Shown: in pieces, positions 6,001 through 42,743 of the stretch
Numbering within the stretch: position 1 is the first letter of the stretch
Layout of the letters: each line of letters opens with the position of its first letter
Assembly (NCBI GenBank): GCA_022984795.1
Contig: JALIHJ010000031.1
Coordinates: 62,001 to 126,000, forward strand
Source: Fabrea salina
Taxonomy: Eukaryota > Ciliophora > Heterotrichea > Heterotrichida > Fabreidae
Direction of reading: 5' to 3'
DNA length: 64,000 nt
The notes under the pieces: generated by a model
The model's database searches: none
What the model saw: only the letters and a program-made list of their open reading frames with translations
What the model was told of the DNA's origin: nothing
Made by a program: the position numbers and the translations under genes

Positions 6001-8242
6001 AATAGTTGCTGAGTTCCAGAGAAAGTTCTTTTAAGTCTACTTGGACTTTGGAAAGGTTTTCTAACAGTTCTAGTTTGAGTTTCTGAAACTCAGCGCTGAA
6101 ACTCAGAGTCTTAAGTAAAGAAGCATAAACGCACCTGTAAGAATTCAGGTCTAAACTAATGATTTCACTGTGTGACTCTGTTCTTAGTTCTTTTAGCACT
6201 TCTGAAAGTCTGCATACTGCTGCAAGGGAGCTCTTAGGAAGACTGCAGTGTATTTCTTGACCAGTTAAGCTGAGTACAAGTGGCTTTTCTTCTACCTCTG
6301 TGATGGTTTCGTTGTTTTGAAGTTGAATGCTTTGAGGTAGTTGCCTTGCTTGTTTCTGGCACAGAACTCTTAACTTCAGGTCCAAAGCTTGCAAAAGGTT
6401 ACTTGTGTGCTCAGCAGTTACTTTTCCCAGAGTGATTTCTAAGTCTTCACTAGTGCCTTCTGCTTTTGCGTTTCGAATGCAGCTAATTATTTCTTCTGAA
6501 GTCTTTTCTAAGAACACCAGTTTAAGCAGTGAAACTTGACCTTGTATTTTGTACTTAGCAGCTGAGTCTACTAAGTTGATTCTCTGGAACTTTTGAATCA
6601 AGTCCAGGAATCTCATTTCTTTTTCGTAGCCTGATTTTCTGTGTCCGGGGAGAATCTCTTCCCAAAGCTTAAAAAACCTTTCCAAAAAGCAAGGCACTAA
6701 CTTGATTTGGGAATCCTTAACACTGAACTGGACTTTCCTGTTATCGTGGAACTCAATGTTTTTCAACACAAGTTGACTTTTAGCTGAGAAGTCCAAACAC
6801 ACCTTAGTGCCTTTGTCCATGTAAAAGATGTTGTCAGAAAGGTGGTTGACTTCTAAAGAACCTAAGTTTAAGTCTACAGAAAACTCAGACTCATACTCAT
6901 CTTGGAGCTTAGCAGTGGCGCTTAAAGTCTTTTGTACGAAGAGACTCTCAGAAACCTTTAAGTCCAGCAAAGCCAAGTCTCCTTCTGAAAACAAAACTTG
7001 CAGTGCAGAAGTTTTGACTTTAACTTCTACGAAGTAAGTGTTGGGGTTAGTTCTGCTGATGGTTTTTAGTTCAAGTTCTTTGCGGACTTTTCCGCGCAGA
7101 CTAAGAATCTCTTGCAAAGACATGTTTCGTTCAAGGTCTTGCAACAGAGACTTCTCCAGTATTTCTGTGGGACATTCTGACTTAAAGTGTAACGCAGGAA
7201 TTACTCCTTCGATGGGCTCTCCTAAGTAAAACTTTTTGTAGAGTTTTTTGTATAAGGATTCCCACAGAAGCTTTTTGCTCATGAACCACCAAGACCTTGC
7301 TCTTACTTTTTGGGTTATTTTGTGCCTGGCAAGTCTCCACTTGTCTTTAGTTTGTTTACCTTTAAATACTTGAAGTGCTTTTTTAACTGCTTGAACCACA
7401 CTAAGGTTTAGGTGGAGTTTTAAATCTGAAAAGCAAGTGTCTACCTGAACGTCTATTTTATCTTGGGCTTCGATGATCCACCTTAGGTTCTTGAAAGACA
7501 GTTTAAAGTTCACTTCAAAGGGTTTAAGCACTTCTAACCCTTGACAGACAACCTTTACTCCAGAGATCAAAAGCAGCTTGAACTGAATAGCTGTGCTTTT
7601 CAAAAGACTTGAGGGGTGTTTTTGTCTTAGGCTCATCATAAGGTTGCTGAACTTGTTCCAGAGTCCTTCTGAGTAGTTAAGAAGAGGTTCAAACTCCTCG
7701 TTTGTAGGAATAAGGCTGATTTCTTCTATGCTGACTATAAACTGGTCTTCTGGAGTGCATATGTGCACAGATATGTTTTTGAGAGTAAGTCTGAGTTTAG
7801 CTAGAATCACTTCTATGATTTCCCCCGAAAAGTACTTTTGCCACAGCAAAGAGTCAAGCAGTTTAGAAAAGACTGCTTTTTTCCGCTCAGCAGTTTCTTC
7901 AAACTGGTTTAAAACTTCCTCTTTTAAGTCTTTTGATTCAGTTGAACTTGAGTTAGAATTCAAACAACACTCAAGAAAAACCCCTTCGAGTTCTAAATCA
8001 ACAGTGCACTCGTACCCAGTCAGAAGCTTTCCCCAAGGAATAGTGGCTTGCAACTTGTCCACTCTGCCAGTTTTAACTTGGATTGTGCTTTGTTTGAGTT
8101 CTTTGCCTATCAGAATGTTTTCTACACTGAGTTTCCCTGCCAAAAGGTCTACAGCAACCTGTTCAGAGTTGACGTTTTCAAGAGTGCCGTCGAACACCTT
8201 GTTGAGGATATAAGTCAAACTATACACTACTGGGTTTGCCAT
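1..8242 (-). CDS. VPS13: VPS13-family bridge-like lipid transfer protein (5' part, runs off the window)
   Basis: The frame stays open on the minus strand from the ATG at 8242 to the left edge, giving about 2,747 residues without the C terminus. Residues 1-100 form a chorein N-terminal domain, including the family's IPW motif around residue 69. A VPS13 adaptor-binding region spans about residues 1675-2420, with six repeats that each start at an Asn motif (HNQTG, HNNLN, TNTTS, INKTE, KNQYS, ENHTA). It is followed by a PH-like segment at about 2470-2550 (about 593-835), ending in the typical EELQEWCKDIENA helix. VPS13 proteins sit at organelle contact sites and carry bulk lipid along a hydrophobic groove. 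The C-terminal ATG2-like and DH-like parts would lie outside the window. The start is shared with a divergent gene only 10 bp away. I translated the frame by eye, so a stopless 15-nt intron could have been missed. Confidence 0.92.
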   Translation of the reverse strand, partial: MANPVVYSLTYILNKVFDGTLENVNSEQVAVDLLAGKLSVENILIGKELKQSTIQVKTGRVDKLQATIPWGKLLTGYECTVDLELEGVFLECCLNSNSSSTESKDLKEEVLNQFEETAERKKAVFSKLLDSLLWQKYFSGEIIEVILAKLRLTLKNISVHICTPEDQFIVSIEEISLIPTNEEFEPLLNYSEGLWNKFSNLMMSLRQKHPSSLLKSTAIQFKLLLISGVKVVCQGLEVLKPFEVNFKLSFKNLRWIIEAQDKIDVQVDTCFSDLKLHLNLSVVQAVKKALQVFKGKQTKDKWRLARHKITQKVRARSWWFMSKKLLWESLYKKLYKKFYLGEPIEGVIPALHFKSECPTEILEKSLLQDLERNMSLQEILSLRGKVRKELELKTISRTNPNTYFVEVKVKTSALQVLFSEGDLALLDLKVSESLFVQKTLSATAKLQDEYESEFSVDLNLGSLEVNHLSDNIFYMDKGTKVCLDFSAKSQLVLKNIEFHDNRKVQFSVKDSQIKLVPCFLERFFKLWEEILPGHRKSGYEKEMRFLDLIQKFQRINLVDSAAKYKIQGQVSLLKLVFLEKTSEEIISCIRNAKAEGTSEDLEITLGKVTAEHTSNLLQALDLKLRVLCQKQARQLPQSIQLQNNETITEVEEKPLVLSLTGQEIHCSLPKSSLAAVCRLSEVLKELRTESHSEIISLDLNSYRCVYASLLKTLSFSAEFQKLKLELLENLSKVQVDLKELSLELSNYFFESYMVCKLSSVEAKDSKGVIFSCKGFKGMQTALGGTYNSGVVVVVKSTDPQSHEFKNILLETEVCLGKVKGCFKLELLNEWLQTVKECQPKQEPVKNSHAHHLLVTSKLIFHSETIKFKLGIGGKDLWIVKASDLIGTCDQYCEKLQLRLRCLDFSMVDFSKLKLVWPDRAQAPLDLNYETDSLNSVLQLRLSYLKLKFLQKVVTELNFYFNYELRKVLGTSQENKGLMDISVLLNEAQIVIPRNSSSSESFVAEVGNILVTNNPMSEFASTGIFEFEKDFSRAAFDQKTYCHPRLDQKLRSKLKIWKKREEPPALEIPVSEIKQSNFKLLKNFRIYYYNPTEKTCEFNSPAKQAKPFSLGVIHEDLPSGLKPLVPFSPVLENSPSAESSEDSQLNCREVVLEVLTDRMLVNCSNITLKDCFSYIVPRDFHLQVEIDYEYPQVISVKVAETLYLSLFMKHYNLLLKIFFENFYETPSWNPFQVYVLNEDIYQRVRFGVPKLELEIIESLENSKDHYLNEKLTKEHSLAKITLEEIYLEIGFRNNFSKEISLETKAIQVLDERPTSLLKEHTPLSSFAQAQKSIQLYMVIEESRALQVTLSSIHLVVIPDFFNQLLNFFQCPFNESLFPMSEDFATENYTPPDLKVSFNCFEVSVLFLSSFESKLDPALMVDLELQGNFAQEDNCWTGPGTQSIDLKLNLENAVFVTPNTNFVELRNRQPVLEYLGFDLKYCFYKPIEGSPCTQVNLRMPNPVKFHLSLGSVQTLKEVSELLSQNSIESPRPPEEVLLEEDQKFALSVSFYNFCVEMKNEMMHPIFQVNFLEVLGGYQVGTISDIESQKGKEGQCFVMVGVNHFNERLSSWEPLIEEIGLEFSYSSQSDQSLIAVKQTRNSFQVNITYALVDTLSYIYKTFNNLEDSFNRHWVSENPYCLHNQTGLPVRVQVKQDTQSLTYELEDEEKRFIDELHRTLNVVKFKRKKLDVEVNPSEAGLRPRMFSSVKFQKIQGIEMDTPNLHLIPLEQVNRKFKYPMSFQTQPTDISVKTCCWCPKTKPNSANLESNFDSEYHNMTLLVTEIQWNHQDAQKYINIRSSITLHNNLNIPLEVVFTRNSNMNNFLKQTQLPVKDSLPVPLLALAKGQMFLRPEEGNYDLSEIITEVNQDLTPNTSSNLMLSGWQGIVDKHLLSEILFPNELLTYRCFLEFIPLCCNLKDNSETKPVYFALFVKELDSKSHLRLSTESFQEETERQEQTEEIRQIQLVLTPIISFTNTTSRVCYIKMWSSVEEEPHHLEKIHQGETKPFCSIPFFDKKLQLKLRIPGCDLTKKLTVNLLEIEKKHKISIRVNEQGQESNYFHLWIKISKDDFKCWRFNLYVPFWIINKTELNLKYAEPLLMKRNKIRKELNEEEDAPVMQYEEESKNSPLQEVFEENSLMLKKNWTCMSGTEPSDWKKIKPFDTSKQMSKLKVAISNENDELESSWSQNFSLTNTGTSGEVNITHHSGSRYDLGVTIEKGIGVFQLTNIVTFYPRYILKNQYSLGLNVRQVDSENYTFINVNSEKHFYWGSNKGPFYVEIAAMVGSHDAPKKWSGAFPINELGEYFVKIPLDHVFQQSEEVVQVSVVSSDPIFIVQFMNRSSETLPYKLENHTAHNIKYQQNYSKATQRRLKPRTFQGPYSEYFTWDEEVAPHELRVTIESSTGVFSFEDIKVYSPLRIDEDKWKESLMNEIKKEGVLKVKSHRIQRYKYRKVQLCQNWLFVEGKKPVNLEFLCTKVYMKPEKLAIESCNTHYYIKAESREELQEWCKDIENARNEELPSPQQQVYVQVELKGSTQIMKFLDWKPDKYSEKHEENCKQKHFMLENPEETPKDTSRLFISLDIGISLIDFHPQEVVYMQFKEVIAQFGSREDRTKTWFLSVVDMEAANQHPSTQVPVLLVPYSLQSSKKAHSLLFSMIRENSKEIDKIQTLQFNLAPMNIQLDESIIENLLQFFLFAKHSFESESQELTLKK

Positions 8243-33877: not shown

Positions 33878-34522
33878 ATGGCAATGAACCCGGAATAGTA
33901 AGATTTACTCAGCGACTACCTGTTCAAACTATTGCTGATAGGGGACTCAGGCGTAGGAAAATCAAGCCTACTCTTGCGTTTCTCAGACAACACCTACACT
34001 GAGAGCTTTATTTCAACAATTGGCGTAGACTTCGTAAGTTTCACCTAGAAAATCCGCACCATAGAACTAGAAGGCAAAGTGATCAAACTGCAGATTTGGG
34101 ACACTGCAGGTCAAGAAAAGTTCCGCACGATCACATCATCTTACTACCGAGGAGCTCACGGAATCATCATTACATACGATGTGACTGACAGAGAGTCTTT
34201 CGACAACGTAAAGAACTGGATCCAAGAAGTTTCCCGCTACGCTTCTGAGTCAGTCAACAAGCTTCTGGTCGGAAACAAAAGTGACTTAGAAGACAAACGT
34301 GCAGTGAATTACGACGAAGGCAAAGAGCTTGCAGACTCACTCGGTATTCCTTTCATTGAAACCTCAGCTAAGACTGCCCAGAACGTTGAAGAGTCCTTTG
34401 TAAAAATGGCTGGTGAAATCAAGTCTAAAATTGCTGCTAACACCACCACTTCTGCTCAGGCTAAGGGACAGCGCCTTGCAGGAAAAACAATCACCCAACA
34501 AAAGAAGAGTGGTTGCTGCTAA
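33878..34522 (+). CDS. RAB1: Rab1-type small GTPase, three exons
   Basis: Exons 33878-33897, 33913-34033 and 34049-34522 give 204 residues after removal of two 15-nt introns. The spliced protein begins [20 protein letters not shown] and contains the Rab1 switch and G motifs: [44 protein letters not shown] and ETSAKT. It ends in SGCC for double geranylgeranylation. Rab1 controls ER-to-Golgi traffic. Exon 1 is only 20 nt. Both introns rebuild near-invariant residues, so this gene is the best internal proof of the intron rule. Confidence 0.97.
33898..33912 (+). other. 15-nt intron
   Basis: GTAAGATTTACTCAG after a 20-nt first exon. Splicing gives the Rab1 signature EYDYLFKLL; without it the frame stops at codon 7. 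Confidence 0.97.
34034..34048 (+). other. 15-nt intron
   Basis: GTAAGTTTCACCTAG. Splicing joins GVDF to [10 protein letters not shown], exactly as in Rab1 proteins. Unspliced, it ends in TAG. Confidence 0.97.
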
Positions 34523-34534
34523 CTAACTCAATGA

Positions 34535-35587
34535 TTAATGGTAAAGGCTTTTTAGCAGGGAAGTAGTGTAGTTGCTTACTTGTTGCCAGGTTTCTTGTGA
34601 AGCTGAAAGACTTTCTAGGTACTCTGCAATTTTTTCTTCGTTGATTGACTGGTACTTTTCTTCACTGTGCAAAAAAGGCACTCCTCCTAAGTCTAAGAAA
34701 GTAGCTTTGCTAGTGCTCAGTTCGGTTTGGTAACTTCTAATGAAGATGTAGATACTTAACCCCGAGTCTGCTATAATTAGAGAATGGGGAATGTTTTCTT
34801 CAATGCAGTAGTTAACAATGATTCCTGCCACGTTGCCTAGAGACTCAGTGGCTTCTGAGATATTGGCTTCAGAAACTTCAACGCTAGGCTTGATTACAAA
34901 GCACTTAGAAGGAAACTCTGCTTTGAGTAGCTTAATTCCAATGCTAAACATGTTGATTTCTTCTTCGTCTTTGTGCTGCAGAGAAGACTCTAGCAAAAGT
35001 TCCTCGCCTGCTGCTTCAACTGGGAACTTTTCAAGACCTAGTAAGTCTAGAAACAGTAAGTGCAGGTGCAAGTGGTTAATGTCGCAGTTAGCCCCAATGG
35101 AGTCGTAGCCTAGCCTCAAAGTTGGGTTTTCAGTGATTCTGAAAATGTTCATAGCTAAAGTAAGTAACTCTGTTGAAATAGCTTGGGGCAAACACTCCTC
35201 AGGAAACAGTGCTAGTAAGCTGTGGCCTTGAACTACAGGGTAAGGATTGACAAACACTGGGTGGAAGGAGTCCTCTACTTCTTTGTCTACTTCTTCTTTG
35301 TCTTCTTCAGGTTTCTCTTTAGTGACTTCTTCGTTGTCAAAGTCAACCCAGCAAACAACTTTTTGCAAGTCTTCAATACTAAAGGTTTCAGGAGTGTCTT
35401 CGAAGTCAGTGAAAGCAGTGTTGCTGTAAGGCGAAGGATTTTTTGGCGCGTCAGGATTGAAAGTTAGTAAGTAACTTCCAAGGAACCTTTTTTGGAAGTT
35501 TTCCAAACTAAGGTTGAAGAGCTGAGGGGAGTTTCTGTAAACTTCTTCCCAAAAAGAAATCAAGGTGCTTTCTAAAGGTCCGCTCAT
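34535..35587 (-). CDS. GDP-hexose phosphorylase (GDPGP1/VTC2 family)
   Basis: 350 residues. The central region holds VNPYPVVQGHSLLALFPEE and LRLGYDSIGANCDINHLHLH. The latter carries the HIT-like His triad whose central His forms the GMP-enzyme intermediate. This is the pattern of GDP-D-glucose phosphorylase (animals) and GDP-L-galactose phosphorylase (VTC2, plant ascorbate route). These enzymes release hexose-1-phosphate from a GDP-sugar. Which sugar is used here cannot be decided. An acidic Glu/Lys insert covers about 85-105. The gene lies 22 bp downstream of the RquA-like gene on the same strand. Confidence 0.8.
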   Translation of the reverse strand: MSGPLESTLISFWEEVYRNSPQLFNLSLENFQKRFLGSYLLTFNPDAPKNPSPYSNTAFTDFEDTPETFSIEDLQKVVCWVDFDNEEVTKEKPEEDKEEVDKEVEDSFHPVFVNPYPVVQGHSLLALFPEECLPQAISTELLTLAMNIFRITENPTLRLGYDSIGANCDINHLHLHLLFLDLLGLEKFPVEAAGEELLLESSLQHKDEEEINMFSIGIKLLKAEFPSKCFVIKPSVEVSEANISEATESLGNVAGIIVNYCIEENIPHSLIIADSGLSIYIFIRSYQTELSTSKATFLDLGGVPFLHSEEKYQSINEEKIAEYLESLSASQETWQQVSNYTTSLLKSLYH

Positions 35588-35609: not shown

Positions 35610-36341
35610 TTATTTAGTTATCACTACTTTTTGGTAGAGTCCTCCGAAGTAAAGTTCTTTCTGGATGCTTGAAACCTCAGGAATCCAGGTTTCTAAGTCT
35701 TTTTGCCACAAGTCAAGGGCAAAGGGTTCGAGGTACTTGAGAACAGGGTACATTACGTACCTGAAAGGGTTGTAGGCGTAGGGTTTGTGGTAGTCAATAA
35801 ACACTACTTTGCCTCCAGGTTTGCAAACTCTTACAGCTTCTTGGATGCTAAGCTGTCTGGCGTACTCAGGTTGTTCGTGCAGTAAGAAGAACAGTATTAC
35901 ATTGTCAAAAGACCCGTCTTCGAAGGTCATTGCGTTGGAGTCTTGCTGATGCAGTTTCACATTAGAGAAGTTATTTACCTTTTTTCTAAGGTTTTCAAGC
36001 TGTACATCGGCTACGTCCACTACGTGAATTTCTGATTGGGTGTCTACTTGCTGAGCTAGTTTTTCCGTGAAGTTCCCGTAAACACAAGCTACCTGCAGGA
36101 TCTTTCCTGAGGAGGTGAATTCACTGAGAGCAGTATCTCTCAGGTGGTTGAAGTTTCCCCAGAGGATTGCGTTGACAAGCCATTGTCTCTCGAACACCCA
36201 AACTGCATTAGGGTGAACATAAGCCCACCAGTAAGTTTCTGTCAAATATTTGGGCAACTCAGGCTTTATGTAGGTAGACATCCGGGAGTATTTTCTTTTG
36301 TCTGAGAAACTGCGGAAGACTATTTTGCTTAACCCTTGCAT
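35610..36341 (-). CDS. rquA: RquA-like rhodoquinone biosynthesis protein with mitochondrial presequence
   Basis: 243 residues from the ATG at 36341. A start at 36386 would add 15 residues, but the downstream start gives a good mitochondrial presequence (MQGLSKIVFRSFSDKRKYSR). The body carries motifs I associate with RquA: YLTETYWWAYVHPNAVWVFE, RQWLVNAILWGN, LQVACVYGNFTEKLA, HQQDSNAM, FFLLHEQPEYAR, PGGKVVFIDYHKP, LEPFALDLW and YFGGLYQKVV. The normal methyltransferase glycine motif is replaced by VACVYG, as in RquA. RquA turns ubiquinone into rhodoquinone, which lets mitochondria run fumarate reduction without oxygen. The eukaryotic gene is known to spread by lateral transfer. No intron is needed. 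Confidence 0.9.
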   Translation of the reverse strand: MQGLSKIVFRSFSDKRKYSRMSTYIKPELPKYLTETYWWAYVHPNAVWVFERQWLVNAILWGNFNHLRDTALSEFTSSGKILQVACVYGNFTEKLAQQVDTQSEIHVVDVADVQLENLRKKVNNFSNVKLHQQDSNAMTFEDGSFDNVILFFLLHEQPEYARQLSIQEAVRVCKPGGKVVFIDYHKPYAYNPFRYVMYPVLKYLEPFALDLWQKDLETWIPEVSSIQKELYFGGLYQKVVITK

Positions 36342-36442: not shown

Positions 36443-37309
36443 ATGTCAGAGCACTCTGAAGAAGTTGAAACTTCAGGTTACGGAGAGTTTGAGTACATGA
36501 ACGGAGACACGTACACTGGCAAGTGGGAACTAGCAGGCGAGGTTAAAAAAAGACAAGGCCACGGCAAGTACACCCACTACATCCGTAACGGAGACTCCTT
36601 TTTGAAAGAAGAATACGAAGGAGAGTGGCTAGACGACAAAATGCACGGGTACGGAGTTTACAAGTACCTGTCTGGAGCTGTTTACGAAGGCCAGTTTGTG
36701 GAGGGAAAACACCACGGCCGAGGAGTTTACTACTTCGCAAATGGAGCCAAGTATGAAGGAAACTGGGAGTCCCACAGAATGCACGGAAGTGGAGTTTACA
36801 CAGACCAGTACGGAGTCGTTTGGAAAGGGATTTTCAACCAGGGAACTTTTGAGTCGTCCATTCAAAAAAGACTTAAAAAAGAACACGAAATCCAACAGAA
36901 AGTCAACAAAATCGCCGGAGTTGCCAAAGAAAAACTAACTGAAATCAAGTCGGTGTTCCAGGGCGAAAAGAAAACTTGGAAAGAAAACTTCACCAAGTAC
37001 TTAGTTAACTTGCCAGAAGATGTTGAACGGTTTGTTGGGGAACCCTATGCAAAGTGGGAAGACAGAACTGGAGACAAGTGGAACGAGCTTTTAGGACAGG
37101 TTTTGGAGGTTGAACCCCACGTGCTCAAAAGCCGAGAAGATTCCTACTGCCTTTCTGAAGAAAGGATATTTGGAGAGCAACTTGAAGGCGAAGGACAAGT
37201 AGTGGAGTTCGTTAAGAAAACTGACAACAGAAAAATCGAACTGTGCATGGTTGTGAACGACTCGGAGAGTTGGTTTATCTTTAACTGCTGTGACTCTGTC
37301 CAGAAGTAA
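36443..37309 (+). CDS. MORN-repeat protein
   Basis: 288 residues. About five MORN repeats span residues 12-145 (GEFEYMNGDTYTGKWELAG, YEGEWLDDKMHGYGVYKY, YEGQFVEGKHHGRGVYYF, YEGNWESHRMHGSGVYTD). MORN repeats form an extended beta sheet that binds lipid headgroups or proteins at membranes and the cytoskeleton. The C-terminal half is helical and charged with no recognised domain (EDRTGDKWNELLGQVLEVEP). Cortex or ciliary-base scaffolding is inferred from how common such proteins are in ciliates. The next gene starts 10 bp after the stop. Confidence 0.88.
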   Translation: MSEHSEEVETSGYGEFEYMNGDTYTGKWELAGEVKKRQGHGKYTHYIRNGDSFLKEEYEGEWLDDKMHGYGVYKYLSGAVYEGQFVEGKHHGRGVYYFANGAKYEGNWESHRMHGSGVYTDQYGVVWKGIFNQGTFESSIQKRLKKEHEIQQKVNKIAGVAKEKLTEIKSVFQGEKKTWKENFTKYLVNLPEDVERFVGEPYAKWEDRTGDKWNELLGQVLEVEPHVLKSREDSYCLSEERIFGEQLEGEGQVVEFVKKTDNRKIELCMVVNDSESWFIFNCCDSVQK

Positions 37310-40183: not shown

Positions 40184-41446
40184 TTAAATCTTGCTTGTTT
40201 TTAAGTTTGTAGACTTAACTTCTCTGTAAACAATGCGTGCAAGAAAACAGCACGAAAGAATACTCACTAGCATCATGAACCCAAACACAGCGTTCCATGA
40301 AAAACTTTGTATGTAGCCTATAAGGACTTGGCCAATAGCAGCTCCAAAAGCCCCTGTGCCGTTGATAATTCCTATGATTATAGGCTTAGGTTTAGTAGAA
40401 ATGTCTTTGGCTAAGTCTGAAGCCACCGCTACAGAAATGATATTGGCACTTCCGCCTATCATGTAGCCTGTAATAGGAACTAGCCCAAAAAACAGGTAAC
40501 TGCTTTCTAAACCTACAATTTGAAAAGCCAGCAACAAAGGAACTGAGCATATCATCATGCACTCCACCACTGTGGACCTCTTCATAGTTAAGTCCGAAAT
40601 GTACCCTGAAACTATACTTCCTAGCACCCCTCCTAAGTCATAAAGTGTCGCCAAAATGCTAATTTGGGTCATTTGCATGCCAAAAACTACCTTAAGGTAA
40701 AAAGGCAACCACATAAAAAACCCGTAGTTGAGCATCTTAATGCATCCGTAGCACACTGCACACTCAGTAACCCCTGGGAGCTTCCAAGACTCCCAAAAAC
40801 CTACCTCAGTTGTTTCCTTCTCAATGAGATTTTCAGACAAGCTGTTTCTGGAAGGACTAGGTTCAATAAACACAAAGATAAACACTGCCACTATGCCCAG
40901 CAGACTCGAAGTGGAAACAACCACTCCCTCCCAAGGAAGGTCCAAGTCCTGGTTTGTAATTGCAGCAACCCACTGCCCAAGAATGTTTCCTACAGAGGAA
41001 TTGGCTCCCCAAGCACCCATAACTTGTCCCCTAATGTAAAAAGGAATCCAGTTCCCCAGTATACTTACTCCAGTGGTCAGAATCACCCCCTGCACAGGTC
41101 CTTCGATGGACCATAACAATAAGTACACCCATTTTTCTTGCACCTGCAAAACTCCACACAAAGCCACTGCCCAAAGGGCAAACATAGCCATCACCATTCC
41201 AGAAGTCATCACTTTCACTAAGCAGAACCTACTTGCAACCACTCCTGAAACGAAGTACCCAAACGAATATAAAAAAAGAAATGTAAAGTCCAACGCGCCC
41301 AGAAACGAAGCAGAAAACTCCATGTCGTAGTGCACTTGGGCTTTAACCATCCACCAGCCTTCTCGAGCAGTGTGAGTTGCCACTATACTGAAGAAAGTAA
41401 GCAAGAACACACAGAATTCCTTTCCACTCAGTTTGAGCAAAGCCAT
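40184..41446 (-). CDS. Major facilitator transporter, SLC37-like (copy A)
   Basis: 420 residues with about 12 membrane helices. It begins with FFSIVATHTAREGWWMVKAQ and carries the organophosphate:phosphate antiporter pattern (GIIN-GTGAFGAAIGQVLIGYI, MGAWGANSSVGNILGQWVAA). SLC37 and GlpT-type carriers swap sugar phosphates or glycerol-3-phosphate for phosphate. Its substrate is unknown. A close paralogue lies 16 bp upstream on the same strand, so the two form a tandem pair, with the same helices and the shared REGWWMVKA motif. Confidence 0.85.
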   Translation of the reverse strand: MALLKLSGKEFCVFLLTFFSIVATHTAREGWWMVKAQVHYDMEFSASFLGALDFTFLFLYSFGYFVSGVVASRFCLVKVMTSGMVMAMFALWAVALCGVLQVQEKWVYLLLWSIEGPVQGVILTTGVSILGNWIPFYIRGQVMGAWGANSSVGNILGQWVAAITNQDLDLPWEGVVVSTSSLLGIVAVFIFVFIEPSPSRNSLSENLIEKETTEVGFWESWKLPGVTECAVCYGCIKMLNYGFFMWLPFYLKVVFGMQMTQISILATLYDLGGVLGSIVSGYISDLTMKRSTVVECMMICSVPLLLAFQIVGLESSYLFFGLVPITGYMIGGSANIISVAVASDLAKDISTKPKPIIIGIINGTGAFGAAIGQVLIGYIQSFSWNAVFGFMMLVSILSCCFLARIVYREVKSTNLKTSKI

Positions 41447-41462
41447 TTATTACTTGTCCAGT

Positions 41463-42743
41463 TTAAAATTTGTACTTATTATTAGCAATTTTCTTTTTTG
41501 AGTCCTTTATTGCAAGGGGAAGCAAACTCATCAAGGATCCTGCGCAAACCAATACCATGAAATAGAAAACTGCATTCCAGGATATGGTCTGCAGCCATCC
41601 TATAATGATTTGTCCAATAGCTGCTCCTAAACTCCCTGTTCCGTTAATAATTCCTATAACTGTTGTTCTGGCATTGCACTTAGCTCCTTCTTTCTGTGAC
41701 AAGTCTGCTGAAACAGCTGCAGCAATAATGTTAGCGCTTCCGCCTACCATAAAGCCTGTAGTAGGAACAACTAAGTAAAACATCCATTCATTCCCTAGTT
41801 GCACTGTTTGAAAAACTAACAGCATCGGCACTGCTAATACCAGCATCAACTCCACTGTGGCAGACCTAACTTTCACTAAGTCTGAAAAATACCCCCCTAA
41901 CACACTTCCAACCACCCCTCCTAAGTCGTAGAGGGAAGTTAACAGCCCTATTTCAATCATGTCCATTCCGTAGTACAGCCGCAGGTAGTAAGGAAGCCAC
42001 ATAAAAAACCCGTAGTTCAAGAGCTTAACGCCTCCGTAACAAATAGCGCAACTAGCCACTCCTGGGAGTTTCCAAGCCTTCCAAAACCCAGCTCTTTCAA
42101 CTTCTTCAACAGCATTGTCTAGCAAAGGCATGTGCTGGTCTTCTTCTTCTGGAGAGTCCTTCACAAAAGCGTAAACAGCGTAAACCATGATTCCTAGAAA
42201 GCTTCCGGTGACTATAATCACCCACTCCCATCCTAAGCCTAAGTCGTGATGCAGAATAGCAGCCACCCATTCACCCACTATGTTGCCCACGGAAGCGTTA
42301 GCTCCCCAAAAGCCCATAAGCTTGCCGCGCTCAGAAGAAGGAAACCAGTTGGCCATAATTCCTACTGTGATAGTTAGCACACATCCTTGTGCGGGTCCTT
42401 CAATGCCCCAGAGTACAGTATAAATCCAGTAAGATGTTACTTTGGACAGCCCCAGCACACCCATGATCCAGAAGCAAACCATCCCAATGGACATTCCTGA
42501 CCTCAGAACCTTTGTAGGAGAAAAACAGTCGGCTATGACTCCAGAGGTGAAGTACCCCAGTGCGTACAGGAATAAGAAGGTTGAGTCCATTAAGCCTAGC
42601 TGGGTAGATGTAAATCCCATTTCTTCGTGCACGTCAGCTTTCACCATCCACCACCCTTCTCTCGAGGAGTGGGCTGCTACCATGCACAGAAATGTTATCA
42701 AGTACACAGTCATTTGTCCTCGTTTTAACTTGTAGCCTACCAT
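41463..42743 (-). CDS. Major facilitator transporter, SLC37-like (copy B)
   Basis: 426 residues, paralogous along its whole length to the downstream copy. Shared signatures are SREGWWMVKADVHEEMGF, LDLGGVVGSVLGGYFSDL in loop form, MGFWGANASVGNIVGEWVAA and IGIINGTGSLGAAIGQIIIG. The cytosolic loop between helices 6 and 7 is acidic (SPEEEDQHMPLLDN) and ends in a dileucine-like sorting motif. This motif differs in copy A (SLSENLIEKE), so the copies may sit in different membranes. Divergence is well beyond silent sites, so the duplication is old. Confidence 0.85.
   Translation of the reverse strand: MVGYKLKRGQMTVYLITFLCMVAAHSSREGWWMVKADVHEEMGFTSTQLGLMDSTFLFLYALGYFTSGVIADCFSPTKVLRSGMSIGMVCFWIMGVLGLSKVTSYWIYTVLWGIEGPAQGCVLTITVGIMANWFPSSERGKLMGFWGANASVGNIVGEWVAAILHHDLGLGWEWVIIVTGSFLGIMVYAVYAFVKDSPEEEDQHMPLLDNAVEEVERAGFWKAWKLPGVASCAICYGGVKLLNYGFFMWLPYYLRLYYGMDMIEIGLLTSLYDLGGVVGSVLGGYFSDLVKVRSATVELMLVLAVPMLLVFQTVQLGNEWMFYLVVPTTGFMVGGSANIIAAAVSADLSQKEGAKCNARTTVIGIINGTGSLGAAIGQIIIGWLQTISWNAVFYFMVLVCAGSLMSLLPLAIKDSKKKIANNKYKF

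Follow-up and report, generated by a model that had tools for sequence, protein, structure and literature searches.

The window analysed here is a 64,000-nucleotide stretch of the genome of the heterotrich ciliate Fabrea salina (GenBank assembly GCA_022984795.1, contig JALIHJ010000031.1, positions 62,001 to 126,000 of the forward strand). Its minus strand carries a gene for a protein of the RquA family, flanked by genes of eukaryotic type. The span from 35610 to 36341 is exactly one frame from ATG to TAA, which reads in the standard code with no internal stop. A preliminary description, made from the sequence letters, had given this span with no strand and had quoted a series of RquA-type peptides; all of them are present in the translation of the minus strand. 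The features of the locus are listed below (counts refer to the 75 bacterial RquA rows and 12 UbiE/COQ5 rows used for comparison).

33878 to 34534, plus strand: gene of a Rab-type GTPase, a eukaryotic neighbour 1.1 kb from rquA (identified with Pfam; introns read by eye)
34535 to 35587, minus strand: neighbouring gene of 350 codons whose product has no Pfam match
35610 to 36341, minus strand: rquA coding sequence, single exon, 243 amino acids (ATG at 36341-36339, TAA at 35612-35610)
36282 to 36341, minus strand: presequence-like stretch, residues 1-20, net charge +5, with RSFS at residues 10-13
36279 to 36281, minus strand: second methionine of the translation, residue 21
36072 to 36101, minus strand: RquA-type motif I, residues 81-90 (ILQVACVYGN), with Q83 and V87 in place of the D and G of the UbiE/COQ5 rows
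36015 to 36017, minus strand: D109, D in 75/75 bacterial RquA rows, presumed counterpart of D118 of Rhodospirillum rubrum RquA
35940 to 35942, minus strand: D134, D in 70/75 bacterial RquA rows, presumed counterpart of R. rubrum D143
35874 to 35879, minus strand: H155-E156 within FFLLHEQP (H in 73/75 and E in 75/75 bacterial RquA rows; R and N in 12/12 UbiE/COQ5 rows)
36443 to 37309, plus strand: gene of a MORN-repeat protein (Pfam), divergent to rquA, with about 100 bp from start codon to start codon

Relatives of the protein are encoded at 53 loci of the contig collection searched (genome_contigs). These loci were gathered through peptides that match the query exactly, a search that favours near kin. 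The best match over nearly the full length is 61% identical, a 73-residue fragment (L060) is 64% identical, and the nearest relatives found belong to metagenome-assembled genomes (MAGs) of Competibacteraceae and Rhodoferax. A further 26 loci of the class came from 25 of 385 genomes; L112 and L113 were retained with scores below the family cut-off. The fragment was not extracted, which gave 78 bacterial frames, and removal of L095 (the same gene as L055) and of the truncated L030 and L053 left the 75 bacterial RquA rows. L078, below the cut-off, was excluded from the UbiE rows. The search for relatives, the RquA and Pfam model scans and the genome copy search were run with the query minus its two final residues (TK). 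Plasmid records were discarded as a source of relatives: the 85 matches were all below 60% identity, and the 20 listed reached at most 37% and were methyltransferases or unannotated places.

The profile search that the preliminary description had suggested as a check of RquA identity gave 303.1 bits (E 1.1e-90) with the NCBIfam RquA model NF038261, whose cut-off is 175. The runner-up, a demethylmenaquinone methyltransferase model, reached 65.4 bits, below the UbiE/MenG cut-off of 235. Of the positions with 90% identity or more across the bacterial RquA rows, 35 in all, the query keeps 34. The claim that VACVYG replaces the usual glycine motif of methyltransferases agrees with the counts: position 83 is Q in 73/75 RquA rows and D in 12/12 UbiE/COQ5 rows, while position 87 is V in 62/75 and G in 12/12, respectively. 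RquA motif I has been described with these exchanges, Q replacing D/E and V replacing G, in PMC7813818. D109 and D134 are probably the equivalents of R. rubrum D118 and D143, judging from their position relative to the motifs and from the same spacing of 25 residues. The predicted fold is confident overall (mean pLDDT 91.4, pTM 0.86), well formed past residue 30 and uncertain across residues 1-20 (pLDDT about 51). The 50 folds listed in the structure comparison were mostly methyltransferases, with a phosphatidylethanolamine N-methyltransferase at rank 1 and yeast Coq5 (4obw), the quinone enzyme noted among them, at ranks 2, 3 and 6 (TMq 0.66-0.68).

These folds, together with the Pfam matches to Methyltransf_25 (64 bits) and Ubie_methyltran (60 bits), are what one would expect of an ordinary quinone methyltransferase or other SAM methyltransferase (COQ5, COQ3 or UbiE-like) that had acquired RquA-like peptides by chance. 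The query does share the Class I SAM fold with the COQ5/UbiE C-methyltransferases, but it differs from them in motif I, where Q stands in place of D, in H155-E156 and in the C-terminal FGGLYQ region. COQ5 and COQ3 are present as separate genes elsewhere in the genome. The scores of the RquA and best methyltransferase models (303 vs 65 bits), motif I with the other conserved positions, and the failure of the query to pair with COQ5 in the tree tests below refute this explanation, which we consider highly improbable; by its sequence the gene product is identified as RquA, and not as COQ5, COQ3 or UbiE.

A quick tree of 96 rows placed the query with RquA; it had the 76 RquA rows on one side of a branch with an SH-aLRT support of 98 and grouped the 12 UbiE/COQ5 rows with a support of 99. 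In a careful tree of 43 rows, for which 36 of the 75 RquA rows and 5 of 11 UbiE rows were taken by the author's choice, the query fell within a group of 24 rows, mostly beta- and gammaproteobacterial, supported at 100/100. Forcing the query onto the COQ5 of its own genome was rejected (delta lnL 201, p-AU 7e-8), as was forcing it onto COQ5 plus two UbiE rows (cost 175, p 9e-76); placement with six alphaproteobacterial RquA rows cost 40 (p 0.0098). Two other placements were not rejected by the AU test. Joined to six UbiE/COQ5 rows, a position equivalent to the first branch of RquA, the query cost 3.5 (p 0.175); when it was joined to the 13 alphaproteobacterial rows, the tree even scored 5.2 log-likelihood units above the unconstrained tree (p 0.677). 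Because of these two results, and with a long outgroup branch that makes the RquA root unsure, the exact position of the query inside RquA is not fixed. A tree had also been suggested beforehand as a check, with a place among ordinary methyltransferases as the outcome that would count against RquA; the query stands with RquA and not with COQ5/UbiE.

The contig carrying rquA is 264 kb long, in an assembly of 18,328,466 bases and 103 contigs. The window has 35 standard-code frames of at least 150 amino acids, which end in TAA (28 cases), TGA (4) or TAG (3). Thirty of them served for comparison of codon use and N termini, rquA and four short frames (starts at 7728, 11444, 32599 and 59235) being omitted. 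The GC content of rquA is 0.434 against a mean of 0.425 in these 30 frames and its codon score 0.117 against 0.114; its third-position GC (0.506) lies about 1.6 s.d. over the mean of 0.445. Pfam analysis of nine window proteins identified legumain, DEAD-box, Rab, MORN, Exo84, RING/IBR and two MFS proteins, and one protein was without match. The two MFS transporter genes adjoin each other on the minus strand (40184-42743) and have similar starts; they are perhaps a tandem pair. Read by eye, the Rab gene has two apparent 15-nucleotide introns (GT...AG) at 33898 and 34034. When both stretches are taken out the early in-frame stops vanish and the usual Rab sequence results. The stops are held within the apparent introns or end them, and a reading in genetic code 6 would miscall them as Gln. 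Counting GTA-N9-TAG across the window did not help to detect 15-nucleotide introns, as there were 33 occurrences where 24.3 were expected and the highest count among the shuffles was 34, so the evidence for introns of this size consists of the two stretches in the Rab gene. Introns this short, together with stop codons of the standard code, are in keeping with a heterotrich.

The assembled sequence identifies rquA as a gene of the ciliate's own nuclear genome. The location among ordinary ciliate genes given in the preliminary description thus holds, in view of the eukaryotic neighbours, the long contig and the near-average codon use. The alternative is contamination, with the gene coming from a bacterium living with the ciliate or eaten by it. 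The nearest relatives are indeed bacterial, at up to 61% identity, but we regard this origin as extremely improbable for a single frame of host-like GC content and codon score inside a 264-kb contig, flanked by the Rab gene with its apparent introns and by MORN and Exo84 genes. The start of the protein points the same way: it has an R-x-F-S sequence, and among the 78 bacterial frames a single one (L031) has this within 70 residues of the start of its open frame.

The N terminus was proposed in the preliminary description to be a mitochondrial presequence, and the comparison within the genome is compatible with this view. Residues 1-20 include one acidic residue, and R-x-F-S lies within the first 30 residues of rquA as well as of the COQ5, COQ3, SDHA and NDUFV1 proteins of the same genome (four of the five respiratory and ubiquinone proteins checked), all of which have basic starts when read from the first methionine. 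The fifth, the Rieske protein, has a basic start with ASFS instead. We take the R-x-F-S of the query to resemble a processing motif. R-x-[FY]-S is missing from the first 30 residues of all 30 of the other window frames, and R-x-F-S is found in 63 of 14,496 overlapping 30-residue stretches from these frames. Charge alone is weak evidence for a presequence because three of the 30 frames have equally basic starts (net charge of at least +4, no more than one acidic residue). The bacterial frames vary ahead of the core: one of the 78 (L057) aligns with the query from residue 1, through an extension upstream of its likely later start, and others from residue 7 onward. Import of RquA into mitochondria would fit the character of its N terminus. 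Met21 could serve as an alternative start and yield a form lacking the presequence. Elsewhere in the genome, two methyltransferase-like frames (L004 on G000:C15 and L008 on G000:C37) also have presequence-like starts, with RGFS in L004, and are possible mitochondrial enzymes.

The 18.3-Mb genome has one place above the RquA cut-off in a profile search, in which six other matches scored 23-28 bits, and a protein search gave one match of 554 bits and seven others of at most 36 bits. Publications have described RquA in heterotrich ciliates from 2018 on (PMC5953543; also PMC7813818), and PMC6993867 mentions its detection in data from five aerobic heterotrichs. Fabrea and rhodoquinone were not found together in the literature searched. 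Fabrea may be among those five heterotrichs, which is a guess on our part. It is absent from the main texts of PMC5953543 and PMC7813818, and the passages of PMC11077807, PMC10946202 and PMC13310139 consulted hold nothing on rquA in Fabrea. The RquA of Spirostomum, Blepharisma and Stentor, as described in PMC7813818, is of the same class and the same enzyme, with the same motif I substitutions and a presequence-like N terminus, a likeness drawn from the description. The copy number differs: that source gives two to three for Spirostomum and a minimum of two for both Blepharisma and Stentor, compared to one found in the Fabrea genome. PMC5953543 describes a ciliate clade in its Group B (Stairs et al. 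2018), as well as lateral transfer of rquA; the Fabrea protein is likewise nearest to beta- and gammaproteobacterial RquA and would belong to Group B by resemblance to the description. The lateral transfer mentioned in the preliminary description stands as far as bacterial ancestry is concerned, which fits both the bacterial relatives and this published account, but it is not newly shown by the present analysis. With RquA already on record for heterotrichs, a member in Fabrea was to be expected. What it contributes to the heterotrich set is a genomic example that is flanked by host genes and apparently present in a single copy; the known picture of the lateral spread of rquA is left unchanged. 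The point of real interest is whether the ciliate enzyme forms rhodoquinone in vivo.

The locus as a whole is best explained as a nuclear heterotrich gene for the rhodoquinone-forming enzyme RquA, ultimately bacterial in origin, a reading to which we give a probability of about 0.85. R. rubrum RquA, which belongs to the same family and shares motif I and the presumed counterparts of D109 and D134, transfers an amino group from SAM onto ubiquinone, with Mn2+. Its double D118A/D143A form makes no RQ8, and its first 40 residues are reported to be dispensable for activity (PMC9814641, where this biochemistry is shown for the R. rubrum enzyme). Once imported into mitochondria, the Fabrea protein would carry out the reaction measured for the R. 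rubrum enzyme, exchanging a methoxy group on ubiquinone for an amino group donated by SAM, with Mn2+. When oxygen is scarce, rhodoquinone would be reduced by complex I, and its electrons would go to fumarate through a complex II running backwards. In the presence of oxygen the ordinary ubiquinone chain would run, and the rhodoquinone route would be a facultative branch. Use in such a hypoxic electron-transport chain is plausible. Rhodoquinone formation itself is no more than inferred, since LC-MS detected Q10 and no RQ10 in Spirostomum and Blepharisma, both of which have rquA (PMC7813818).

That result would also be accounted for if the protein were RquA by descent but yielded little or no rhodoquinone in the cell, the gene being silent or conditional or its activity altered. 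Nyctotherus ovalis is reported to have rhodoquinone, with no report of RquA for it (PMC6993867), so gene and quinone are not in a one-to-one relation in ciliates. We hold a low rhodoquinone yield to be unlikely, as 34 of the 35 conserved positions and both presumed SAM-site aspartates are kept, and the authors of PMC7813818 themselves offer degradation, low quantity or insufficient sensitivity as causes of the missing RQ10. It is likewise unlikely that heterotrich RquA, with its known catalytic residues intact, serves no standing rhodoquinone pool and is in use only for short times under strict anoxia or to make another quinone; were this true, the apparently single-copy gene and small genome of Fabrea would be the cleanest place for a test. 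A species with one copy would make the relation between gene and quinone easier to test, since the transcriptomes gave two or more copies and no rhodoquinone was found (PMC7813818).

Under the preferred reading of an active RquA, the respiratory genes of Fabrea, together with COQ5 and COQ3, fit a ubiquinone chain that has a side branch to fumarate through rhodoquinone, of the kind proposed for other protists (PMC5953543). The complex II subunit SDHA has one place over the cut-off (964 bits), complex I NuoF exceeds its cut-off with 640 bits, and the Rieske match lies just below (96.6 vs 97.4). A search for alternative oxidase gave no match in this genome, a silence that says nothing because the search was also silent in 14 of 14 control genomes. 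One place with an [FeFe]-hydrogenase domain was found (L119, 1357-2481, on G000:C19). It encodes 374 amino acids that matched the hydrogenase domain and solved hydrogenases, at best with 94 bits, and its start is not presequence-like. Its N terminus and motifs look like those of the cytosolic Fe-S assembly protein Nar1/NARFL, and this gene was not accepted as a sign of hydrogen metabolism. The NuoF/NDUFV1 gene (G000:C28:206896-208125) shares its contig with rquA, at a distance of about 109 kb, which is probably a coincidence.
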